Positions 6,371 to 13,428 of a stretch of DNA of 14,989 bases are shown piece after piece. The DNA comes from Enterobacteriaceae bacterium UBA2655 (GTDB taxonomy: Bacteria > Pseudomonadota > Gammaproteobacteria > Enterobacterales > Enterobacteriaceae): the NCBI GenBank assembly GCA_002359495.1, contig DENB01000015.1, positions 25,613 to 40,601 of the forward strand, written 5' to 3'. Below the pieces are notes generated by a model. The model did no database searches, was not told the origin of the DNA, and saw nothing but the letters and a program-made list of their open reading frames with translations. The translations under genes were made by a program, and so were the position numbers. How positions within the stretch are numbered: position 1 is the first letter of the stretch; the number at the start of each line of letters is the position of its first letter.

Positions 6371-7090
6371 TCAATAAGCAACCAAGGTGATCACTTTCTC
6401 TTCATGAAAACAGTAACTGCCATTCAGGCAGCGGCCGTTAAAAAATGTCTTGTTCAATTTCTTCTTCAGGCGCAGCGTAAAGCGGCGCAAGCCTGAATCA
6501 AGCCTTACCAGCTCAACATCCCTGAAATCGAAGCGCACGCCCGCTTTTGGATAAATGGCTTTAAAAAAGCTCTCTTTCGCTGAAAAAAGCAGGGTGACTT
6601 TTTGGCTTTCAGAAAGACAATTCAGCCGGTTCGATTCTTCATCGGACAGAATCGCTTCCTTAATTTTGACCGCATGCTCCTCATTTAACCAGGATTCAAT
6701 ATCAATGCCGACGCTGCTTAAAAACTCAGAAGCATGAAGCGCGCCCGCTGCCAAATTACCAGAGTGGCTCAATGAACCGCTTACACCCGCAGGCCAGCAA
6801 GGAGCGCCCTCTTTTGCTTTTATCAGATCGAATTGTTCGTATCCCAGATCGGCCAGCAAAACTTTCGCTACATAACGTCCTGCCAGATATTCTGCGCGAC
6901 GCCGAAGGGTCGTCTTGCTTAAAAACGGTGGCACTCCTACCTGTAACTGTGAAAAGTCGCTTTGCTGAAATTTTGCCGGGTCGAACGTTGCGATCAGGAC
7001 TTTCCCTTGATAAGGGAAACCGCTTACGGCATTGACGCAAGTGATAAATGACGGCTTAGCGCAACTGTGCTCGTTGATAATATCAATCAT
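6371..7090 (-). CDS. 4'-phosphopantetheinyl transferase, EntD type
   Basis: A 239-residue Sfp/EntD-class enzyme that moves the phosphopantetheine arm of CoA onto a carrier-protein serine, converting apo-ACP to holo-ACP. Visible blocks are RRRAEYLAGRYVAK (63-76), PCWPAGVSGSLSHS (98-110 region, with the SLSHS core), the Mg-binding VGIDIE with D130 and E132, and FSAKESFFKAIYP (169-181) with K172, E173 and K177. The ATG at 7090 has GGA about 8 bases upstream. It is the last gene of the island, 139 bp after fadH on the same strand, with no obvious terminator between them. The natural partner is the island ACP, whose serine motif is atypical. It is more AT-rich than core genes. The fold family is clear; the partner is inferred. 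Confidence 0.92.
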   Translation of the reverse strand: MIDIINEHSCAKPSFITCVNAVSGFPYQGKVLIATFDPAKFQQSDFSQLQVGVPPFLSKTTLRRRAEYLAGRYVAKVLLADLGYEQFDLIKAKEGAPCWPAGVSGSLSHSGNLAAGALHASEFLSSVGIDIESWLNEEHAVKIKEAILSDEESNRLNCLSESQKVTLLFSAKESFFKAIYPKAGVRFDFRDVELVRLDSGLRRFTLRLKKKLNKTFFNGRCLNGSYCFHEEKVITLVAY

Positions 7091-7229
7091 ATATTTCCGT
7101 TTCTTTTATACGTCTGCGTCTTTCTAAAACGTGCTGCATCCATGACGCCTGATTGCTCAACTTTACTGAATTTAATCGCTTCTGGGTAAGCGCGCTGTGA
7201 TAAAGAGGGCTGCTGTTATGCCGTATATC

Positions 7230-9260
7230 TTAAATTCCCCTCGCCAGCCGGGTACCTTGCTCTATCGCCTTACGCATGTCCAGCCGGGCAGCAGAGTAAG
7301 CGCCTCCAATCAAATGGGTGCGCTTGCCCGCCTCCTGAAGAGCCTTGCTTAGCTGTTGAGAAGGCAACTGCCCCGTGCAAATAATGATATTATCTACTGC
7401 CAGACACAGCGTTTGGTTGGCATGCGATATATGCAATCCTTCATCATCTATAAAATGATAGGTCACGCAATCCCATATCTTTACGCCCCGTCTCGCCAGA
7501 CGCTCATGATGGATCCAGCTTGTGGTTTTCCCTGCTATTTTCCCTAATTTGCTGCGCTTACGCTGTAGTAAATAAATTTGCCGTGGAGATGCCGGCACAT
7601 CAACCCCTGAATTTAATAAGCCGCCACGCTGACGCAGCGTGCTGTCAATGCCCCACTCGCGGTTGAACGCCTCGATAGCCTGACTGCCTGCTTCGTTCCG
7701 GTCGCTCAGCCATGCCGCTACGTCAACGCCGATCCCGCCTGCGCCAATAATAGCGACGCGCTCACCTGCTGGCTTTTTGCACGTTAACAGATCGATATAA
7801 CTCATAACGCGGGCATGATGAATGCCGGGAATATCAGGAATATGTGGCACGACGCCACAAGCCAGTATCACTTCATCAAAATCGCTCAGGTCGGATACCT
7901 CAACGCGTTTGCCGGTTATAACCTTAATCGCGCTCAATTCAAGCTGACGTTGGTAATAGCGCAACGTCTGTTTAATATCTTCTTTGCCGGGGATTTGGCA
8001 GGCCAGATTTAGTTGGCCCCCTATCTTATCCTCAGCCTCAAATAAAGTAATATCATGGCCGCGCCTGGCCGCAGTAACAGCAAACGCCAGACCCGCCGGC
8101 CCGGCGCCAACAACAGCCAGCCGCTTACGGACGGACGGGCATTCCGGCGCCCACTCTTTTTCCCGACAGGCCCGGGGATTCACAACGCATGTTGCGACGT
8201 TGCCCATAAAAATCATATCAAGACATGCCTGATTACAGGCGATGCAGGTATTGATCTCGTCCGCTCTGCCTTCAGCGCTCTTTTTAACGAATTCTGCGTC
8301 TGCCAAAAACGGACGCGCCATTGAAACCATGTCGGCATGTCGGTTCGCTAAAATATATTCCGCCGTAGCAGGATGATTAATTCGGTTTGACGTAATTAAT
8401 GGCACGGAAACCTTTCCCATGAGTTTTTGGGTAAGCCAACTAAAGCCCCCGTGCGGCACGACATTCGCTATGGTTGGAATCTGTACTTCATGCCAGCCGA
8501 TACCGGAATTTATAATGGTTGCCCCGGCTGCTTCCACTGCCTGAGCTAATTGCACTATCTCATTCCAGTCCGATCCTTTTTCAAGCAAATCAAGCATTGA
8601 TAAGCGATAGATAATAATAAATTCTTTGCCTACTGCTTGCCGTACGGCCTCAACAATCTTCACCGCAAATCGCATACGGTTTTGGTAGGTGCCTCCCCAT
8701 CGATCGGTCCTTTGATTAGCATGAGCCACTAAAAACTGGTTAATTAAATAACCTGCCGATCCCATGATCTCGACACCATCATATCGGGCCTGTTGCGCCA
8801 GCAGCGCGCAACAAGCGAAATCGGCAATGGTTTGTTCGATTTGCGCTTCAGTCATGGCAACGGAGGCATAGCGATTGGATGAGGCTATTGCTGAAGGCGC
8901 GTAGGGTTCTGGCTGATAGCTGTCGCGACCGGCATGCAATATCTGTAATGCAATTTTGCCCCCTGCCTTATGTACAGCATCTGTAATGATTCGGTGTTTT
9001 TCAATCTGTTCCTTCTGATTGAAAACAGAGCCGCCCAAATAAAATATGCCTTTCTCATCAGGCGCTACTCCGCCAGTAACGATTAGCGCGACATCTGCCG
9101 CGGCGCGCTCAGCGTAAAATGCGGCCAAACGTTCCGGCCCGTCAGGTAAATCTTCCAGCCCTGTATGCATGGCACCCATCAGCACCCGGTTTTTAAGTTG
9201 AATGAAACCTAGATCTAAAGGCGCCAGCAAATGAGGATAATGATTCAATGTCGTTTTCAT
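7230..9260 (-). CDS. fadH: FadH-like NADPH 2,4-dienoyl-CoA reductase (island copy)
   Basis: A 676-residue flavin/iron-sulfur enzyme of the OYE-type dienoyl-CoA reductase family, colinear with E. coli FadH (about 672 aa). The TIM-barrel FMN domain comes first (LAPLDLGF, NRVLMGAMHTG). It has catalytic residues Y171 (GSAGYLINQF) and H257 (GIGWHE). The 4Fe-4S cysteines C339, C342, C346 and C358 are all present. The FAD-binding VVGAGPAG (about 383-390) follows, then a second GAGGIG NADPH loop. Known family reaction: NADPH reduction of 2,4-dienoyl-CoA to an enoyl-CoA. The ATG at 9260 is preferred because it places the start just before the conserved LAPLDLGF; upstream TTG codons would translate the terminator. 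No Shine-Dalgarno is visible before it. In this setting it could act as an enoyl or dienoyl reductase on the cluster product, or be an ordinary beta-oxidation copy carried along. Confidence 0.9.
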   Translation of the reverse strand: MKTTLNHYPHLLAPLDLGFIQLKNRVLMGAMHTGLEDLPDGPERLAAFYAERAAADVALIVTGGVAPDEKGIFYLGGSVFNQKEQIEKHRIITDAVHKAGGKIALQILHAGRDSYQPEPYAPSAIASSNRYASVAMTEAQIEQTIADFACCALLAQQARYDGVEIMGSAGYLINQFLVAHANQRTDRWGGTYQNRMRFAVKIVEAVRQAVGKEFIIIYRLSMLDLLEKGSDWNEIVQLAQAVEAAGATIINSGIGWHEVQIPTIANVVPHGGFSWLTQKLMGKVSVPLITSNRINHPATAEYILANRHADMVSMARPFLADAEFVKKSAEGRADEINTCIACNQACLDMIFMGNVATCVVNPRACREKEWAPECPSVRKRLAVVGAGPAGLAFAVTAARRGHDITLFEAEDKIGGQLNLACQIPGKEDIKQTLRYYQRQLELSAIKVITGKRVEVSDLSDFDEVILACGVVPHIPDIPGIHHARVMSYIDLLTCKKPAGERVAIIGAGGIGVDVAAWLSDRNEAGSQAIEAFNREWGIDSTLRQRGGLLNSGVDVPASPRQIYLLQRKRSKLGKIAGKTTSWIHHERLARRGVKIWDCVTYHFIDDEGLHISHANQTLCLAVDNIIICTGQLPSQQLSKALQEAGKRTHLIGGAYSAARLDMRKAIEQGTRLARGI

Positions 9261-13173: not shown

Positions 13174-13176
13174 ATT

Positions 13177-13428
13177 TTAACCCTTCTTTGAATACAAAGC
13201 TTCCAGATAGCTTACCATATCGCCAAAACTATCAATTTCAGCCTCAGCCAATTCGTTCAAATCTATTTCCAGGCCAATTTCCCTTTTAGCTTCAACTTTA
13301 ATAGTGACAAAATCAAGGCTCACCAGATCCAGCTCTTCGATTGTTGTCTCATTAGTTAAATTATTAATATCGAAATCAGTTAACCTTTCGATTAAACCTT
13401 TGAGGAACTTCTCTATCGTACTATCCAT
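13177..13428 (-). CDS. Acyl carrier protein
   Basis: An 83-residue acidic carrier protein with the standard four-helix ACP length. The attachment serine is S37, within LDLVSLDFVTIKVEAK; helix II follows, then an acidic C-terminal part (DLNELAEAEIDSFGDM) typical of ACPs. The usual DSL motif is VSL here, so the near-invariant Asp before the serine is replaced by Val. The ATG at 13428 is preferred over an upstream TTG because the helix-I start fits and AAAGGGA lies upstream, at a slightly long spacing. It is the first gene of the island operon, 3 bp before the KS start. Its phosphopantetheine arm would be added by the EntD-type transferase at the far end of the island or by a host enzyme. It is AT-rich and clearly distinct from housekeeping AcpP. 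Confidence 0.9.
   Translation of the reverse strand: MDSTIEKFLKGLIERLTDFDINNLTNETTIEELDLVSLDFVTIKVEAKREIGLEIDLNELAEAEIDSFGDMVSYLEALYSKKG

Follow-up and report, generated by a model that had tools for sequence, protein, structure and literature searches.

An island between purK and ybbP that is probably the decayed copy of a mini fatty-acid synthase operon found patchily in Enterobacterales

Aryl polyene clusters use a dedicated acyl carrier protein (ACP), a FabF-like ketosynthase (KS), a FabG-like ketoreductase (KR) and a hotdog dehydratase to make an ACP-bound chain. These clusters are reported to have two KSs, one of them a KS-chain-length factor (CLF) complex (PMC8358021). In biotin synthesis, the ferritin-like di-iron oxygenase BioE cleaves C7-C8 of its substrate (PMC12915131). 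Here we analyzed a stretch of 14,989 nucleotides from Enterobacteriaceae bacterium UBA2655 (assembly GCA_002359495.1, contig DENB01000015.1, positions 25,613 to 40,601 of the forward strand; hereafter the window), in which an island between purK and ybbP (6215..13807, delimited by congener comparison and GC profile) carries genes of fatty-acid synthesis type. We consider it rather probable that what the island holds is a decayed mini fatty-acid synthase (FAS) operon, of a kind that occurs patchily in Enterobacterales and acts by the mechanism proposed below; its intact relatives have six genes in a fixed order.

Besides the window, we read the contexts of 12 loci, ten of type A and two of type B, after dropping five (L003, L018, L022, L023 and L049) that repeat loci already counted. 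The type-A loci are those of a Kosakonia cowanii plasmid record (L004, NZ_CP019447.1), an uncultured Cedecea (L005), an Enterobacterales metagenome-assembled genome (L006), Mixta tenebrionis (L007), Tenebrionibacter intestinalis (L008) and Phaseolibacter flectens (L009), along with L019, L020, L021 and L052. The order ACP-KS-MaoC-FabG-PF10118 is kept at all ten. These span seven genera and show the system to be real; conserved gene order in genomes lacking the KS stop of the window was the check named in the original prediction, and it came out positive, as the KS frame is uninterrupted at these and the other loci read. A PF12147-type gene, the sixth of the operon, lies 3′ of PF10118 at every type-A locus (by tblastn in all ten, by Pfam in six). 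Unless the assembly is at fault, L019 has a broken ACP frame and a PF12147 gene without its middle. Literature term searches, with thin subscription coverage and preprints excluded, found neither a description of the six-gene system nor a paper assigning a function to PF10118 or PF12147. By those searches the system is undescribed, in line with the earlier view that no named cluster matches.

In the window, seven open reading frames (ORFs), all on the minus strand, fill positions 6371-13428 in the transcription order ACP, KS, MaoC-like, FabG, PF10118, FadH and phosphopantetheinyl transferase (PPTase), and the six other than the KS are uninterrupted. With separate ACP, KS, KR and dehydratase genes, this is a mini cluster of type II FAS or polyketide synthase-like kind whose KS is interrupted. 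The computed spacing is 3 bp between ACP and KS, a 4-bp overlap of KS and MaoC, 14 bp between MaoC and FabG, and 24 bp between FabG and PF10118, while 132 bp separate PF10118 from FadH and 139 bp separate FadH from the PPTase. The 132-bp gap (9249..9380, minus strand) is occupied by the hydrolase-methyltransferase gene in the ten type-A relatives, and here it holds a terminator-like hairpin followed by a T run, in a stretch whose fold is more stable than those of 198 of 200 shuffled versions (z -2.55). A simple terminator scan did not list this hairpin (7 sites in the region, shuffle mean 8.7), and promoter and terminator scans of the region gave sites no commoner than in shuffles. Because of the spacing and the gap hairpin, the genes from ACP to PF10118 would form one unit and FadH-PPTase another.

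The window KS gene (11902..13173, minus strand) matches the N and C ketoacyl-synt Pfam models, starts at the ATG at 13173 and meets an in-frame TAA at 13095-13093, codon 27 of 424, with no other internal stop. The frame is open again from a TTG at 13080 (open part 11902-13080), and the next in-frame Met is residue 60; the part lost upstream of the restart carries the first strand of the fold. PF12147 had no match in the genome's own assembly, which is 92% complete, and no methyltransferase remnant was found on reading the 132-bp gap. With its KS interrupted at codon 27 and no methyltransferase gene, the window locus is very unlikely to yield a product by itself, and this copy is probably inactive. 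The tight same-strand coupling of ACP, KS, MaoC, FabG and PF10118 given in the original prediction was borne out (-4 to 24 bp), and its full set for priming, condensation, reduction and dehydration was not, the KS being interrupted and a gene present at all ten type-A loci being absent.

It could be argued that the window copy works, either with a KS supplied in trans by housekeeping FabF or FabB, by a downstream restart, or because the stop is a sequencing error, as a subtype that lacks the methyltransferase and uses FadH and the PPTase instead. In keeping with this, the other six frames are open, the MaoC and PF10118 motifs are kept, and a single stop interrupts 424 KS codons; moreover, the KS of the nearest relative, P0154, is 90% identical and has 423 residues, which means that intact-length copies exist, and the P0154 contig is absent among the 120 methyltransferase matches listed. 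However, past the TTG a restart would have to wait for residue 60 and would lose the N terminus, and none of the ten type-A loci with readable context lacks the methyltransferase gene, not even the Cedecea locus with both FadH and PPTase, so that we regard a working window copy as unlikely. The truncated 392-residue KS frame has two member sequences on four contigs (the longest of 40982 bases), possibly all assembled from a single sample. Compared with Cedecea, the KS has the lowest nonsynonymous rate of the seven genes (dN 0.127, for its open part only); synonymous sites are saturated between the two, so only dN is usable. The low KS value suggests constraint until recently and gives no date for the stop.

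The sixth gene encodes an alpha/beta hydrolase fused to a PF12147 (Methyltransf_20) methyltransferase, the latter scoring 318.8-385.2 bits against a cut-off of 21 in all six relatives scanned. Among its relatives is the gene annotated ynbC in E. coli (31-38% identity). At the YnbC Ser115 column, both ordinary family members have Ser, and only the Cedecea protein does among the six operon proteins with context read; the nucleophile is thus lost in five of six, and P0053 and P0054, whose contexts were not read, also lack it. The His column is kept in both ordinary members and in none of the eight other proteins. We take these two columns to be the catalytic residues. The methyltransferase half is conserved and the hydrolase half mostly degenerate; a search of solved structures with the methyltransferase gave one weak carboxylesterase match. 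PF12147 proteins may resemble PhcB-type methyl ester signal synthases.

YnbC itself sits with the phospholipid enzymes YnbA, YnbB and YnbD, and the product of the operon could accordingly be a modified lipid of the membrane and not a secreted molecule. The family membership of the sixth gene agrees with such a role, as do the ynbABCD-type neighbours in three other records examined (E. coli, Burkholderia and Citrobacter). On the other hand, the annotation of the Kosakonia cowanii record shows no such partner within 12 kb (the neighbours of the other loci are only partly identified), and with the hydrolase nucleophile mostly gone, a membrane lipid seems to us a doubtful product. In the Citrobacter record, the IncF plasmid NZ_CP053574.1 (L032), the ynbABCD-like phospholipid operon includes an extra acyltransferase gene and adjoins transfer genes.

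The PF10118 protein of the window (9381..10349, minus strand, 322 aa) belongs to PF10118 (Metal_hydrol), with 44 bits against a curated cut-off of 33.2. E44, E47, E78xxH81, E153, H192 and E196xxH199 are invariant in all 21 aligned PF10118 proteins and give, as putative metal ligands, the E, ExxH, E, ExxH order of di-metal carboxylate oxidases. This invariant set and a structure model that looks ferritin-like fit the earlier reading of a likely ferritin-like redox metalloprotein, and we regard the protein as probably ferritin-like. The H192-x3-E196-x2-H199 spacing may be AurF-like. VIA rows for PF10118 include neither AurF nor BioE, which carries no weight either way. A sequence search of solved structures with this protein gave chance-like hits only. 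CylC dimetal halogenases (PMC8406957) were also considered as a possible comparison.

The remaining core genes are of recognizable types. The dedicated ACP (13177..13428, minus strand, 83 aa) matches PF00550 PP-binding with 24.3 bits against a cut-off of 20.8, is 35-64% identical to its relatives, and contains LDLVSLDF, which we take to be the probable attachment-serine motif. The MaoC-like protein (11138..11905, minus strand, 255 aa) is a probable dehydratase; its Pfam score of 24 is below the cut-off of 27, three of three relatives scanned score above it, the structure model is a double hotdog, and SGDxNxxHFD is invariant in all ten aligned proteins. The FabG-like ketoreductase (10374..11123, minus strand, 249 aa) matches adh_short_C2.

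In the six-gene operon, an Sfp-type PPTase, for which some hosts have a gene next to the operon, would attach the pantetheine arm to the ACP, and the FabF-like KS would extend the chain with malonyl units, which FabG would reduce and the double-hotdog MaoC protein would dehydrate. The PF10118 protein, as a putative di-iron enzyme, would carry out an O2-dependent desaturation, hydroxylation or cleavage of the ACP-bound chain, the YnbC-family protein, with its conserved methyltransferase half and mostly degenerate hydrolase half, would add a methyl group, and at loci that have FadH this enzyme would take away one double bond. In the simplest reading, an ACP-bound acyl chain is oxidised by the di-iron protein and methylated, and the product would be a methylated, oxidised fatty acid, which could be signal-like. 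A more specific proposal is that the operon represents an undescribed class, in which a PF10118 di-iron acyl-ACP oxygenase is paired with a YnbC-type methyltransferase that caps the carboxylate in a BioC-like manner; lacking a working BioH-like hydrolase, it would leave a lasting methyl ester, and the methyl-capped oxidised fatty acid would be used between cells or with the host. We offer this last proposal as a speculation that is quite unlikely to hold. The placement of PF10118 and PF12147 genes beside a dedicated ACP in a compact operon suggests their substrates, and this idea is open to direct testing with the open-frame copies of named strains such as Kosakonia cowanii DSM 18146, Mixta tenebrionis and Phaseolibacter flectens.

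FadH and the PPTase are occasional companions outside the conserved core. The FadH-type oxidoreductase (7230..9248, minus strand, 672 aa from the ATG at 9248) matches Oxidored_FMN and is a paralogue of another FadH-like gene elsewhere in the same assembly; within the stretches read, FadH occurs at two of ten other loci, intact in Cedecea and broken in L006. The PPTase (6371..7090, minus strand, 239 aa) matches 4PPT_N and ACPS and is also found at two of ten, in Cedecea and, on the opposite strand, in L052. The original prediction correctly placed both on the same strand as the core; the transferase, there called EntD-type, is of Sfp type, and EntD identity was rejected (81.6 bits against the EntD-model cut-off of 169). 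Because the window and Cedecea PPTases are only 33% identical, separate recruitment is possible. At the Cedecea locus, genes for a HlyD-type adaptor and a double ABC ATPase come after the cluster (L005:13943-16932) and may specify an exporter.

The type-B operon (L024:1545-7122 and L025:8036-13614) keeps the five core genes, with a 307-residue protein inserted between MaoC and FabG and a flavin reductase upstream. The inserted protein, a second and weakly ferritin-like one, shows faint resemblance to AurF, desaturases and R2, with every score under its cut-off. No PF12147-type match lies 3′ of PF10118 in L025, and in L024 the contig stops before this could be seen. The genome with L022 carries both variants, L025 being its second copy.

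The system is sparsely represented in the samples searched: one of 59 others in the first sample of relatives, seven of 391 genomes besides its own in the family sample (types A and B together), and two of 393 others in the order sample at E <= 1e-20. A scan of 84,980 species' genomes yielded five loci from 46 candidate stretches, a lower bound because two peptide patterns were used. The operon is inserted at rep-gppA in Kosakonia, next to a gene of 1316 residues at the two Mixta-like loci, and elsewhere in the others; the rep-gppA point of the K. cowanii record is also used in two other genomes, on multi-megabase contigs. As sites differ across genera and agree inside each, we infer that the operon has now and then moved from one genus to another and has been inherited vertically inside each. 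The ilv, rep, rho and wec genes on the Kosakonia "plasmid" NZ_CP019447.1 have the look of chromosomal genes.

In the window, GC content is 0.41 over the five core genes and 0.44 over 6371-13428, against 0.61 for cysS-purK and 0.64 for ybbP. Eight congeners were chosen from 60 genomes of the genus, its own excluded; purK and ybbP are neighbours in all eight, 36 to 271 bp apart, and about 11 kb of sequence read there gave no match to the KS, PF10118, FadH or PPTase, the four island proteins tried. The PF10118 protein was found in none of the 60. Since the site is empty in the eight congeners and the PF10118 protein is in no other genome of the genus, the island is most simply a lineage-specific acquisition, and the window copy would exemplify a cluster gained as an island and then damaged. 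Phage or plasmid origin found no support, with no match in phages and a single plasmid record (K. cowanii). The island had no megablast match among 20,395 E. coli records, where the KS gave short 67% matches only, and no tRNA was found within the window. Outside the island, an ATPase-like ORF adjoins cysS (560-1660, minus strand), with GxxGxGKS seen by eye in the ORF list.

Several described systems resemble parts of this operon. BioE shares the metal-ligand order E, ExxH, E, ExxH with PF10118 proteins (compared by eye), and for BioE a long-chain acyl-ACP substrate was tested (PMC12915131); the likeness in ligand order fits PF10118 as a putative di-iron oxidase of ACP-bound chains. In BioC/BioH methyl-ester priming, described in the same paper, a SAM methyltransferase and an esterase likewise work with FAS enzymes on ACP, whereas the sixth gene encodes one fused protein of another family with its hydrolase nucleophile mostly lost. 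YnbC of E. coli ynbABCD has the same fused architecture, but its neighbours differ, and the hydrolase half is degenerate in most operon copies. The plasmid mini-FAS sets of E. coli and Salmonella (L026, NZ_CP059839.1; L027, NZ_CP023469.1, pSalMiami) comprise a KS 52-53% identical to that of the window, a gene of 257-261 aa without Pfam match, an ACP and a short-chain dehydrogenase/reductase (SDR); they have no PF10118 or PF12147 gene annotated and are tied to an exporter, as genes for a C39 peptidase, an RND adaptor, ABC and TolC immediately precede them. In favour of a reduced cluster of aryl polyene or flexirubin type are the FabG score of 212.9 bits with the flexirubin SDR model FlxB, below its cut-off of 340, and KS relatives at 53-58% that include Pseudomonas, Photorhabdus and Frischella proteins, which may be of that kind (contexts not read). 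The aryl polyene clusters share the ACP, FabF-like KS, FabG-like KR and hotdog dehydratase with the island, but where they have two KSs, one of them a KS-CLF complex (PMC8358021), the island has a single KS and no CLF. Aryl polyene membership was rejected on this count; the original prediction, too, had seen no match to aryl polyene sets, and a reduced form of such a cluster appears very improbable. The island differs further in its far fewer genes and its PF10118 protein, to which the relatives add the PF12147 methyltransferase.
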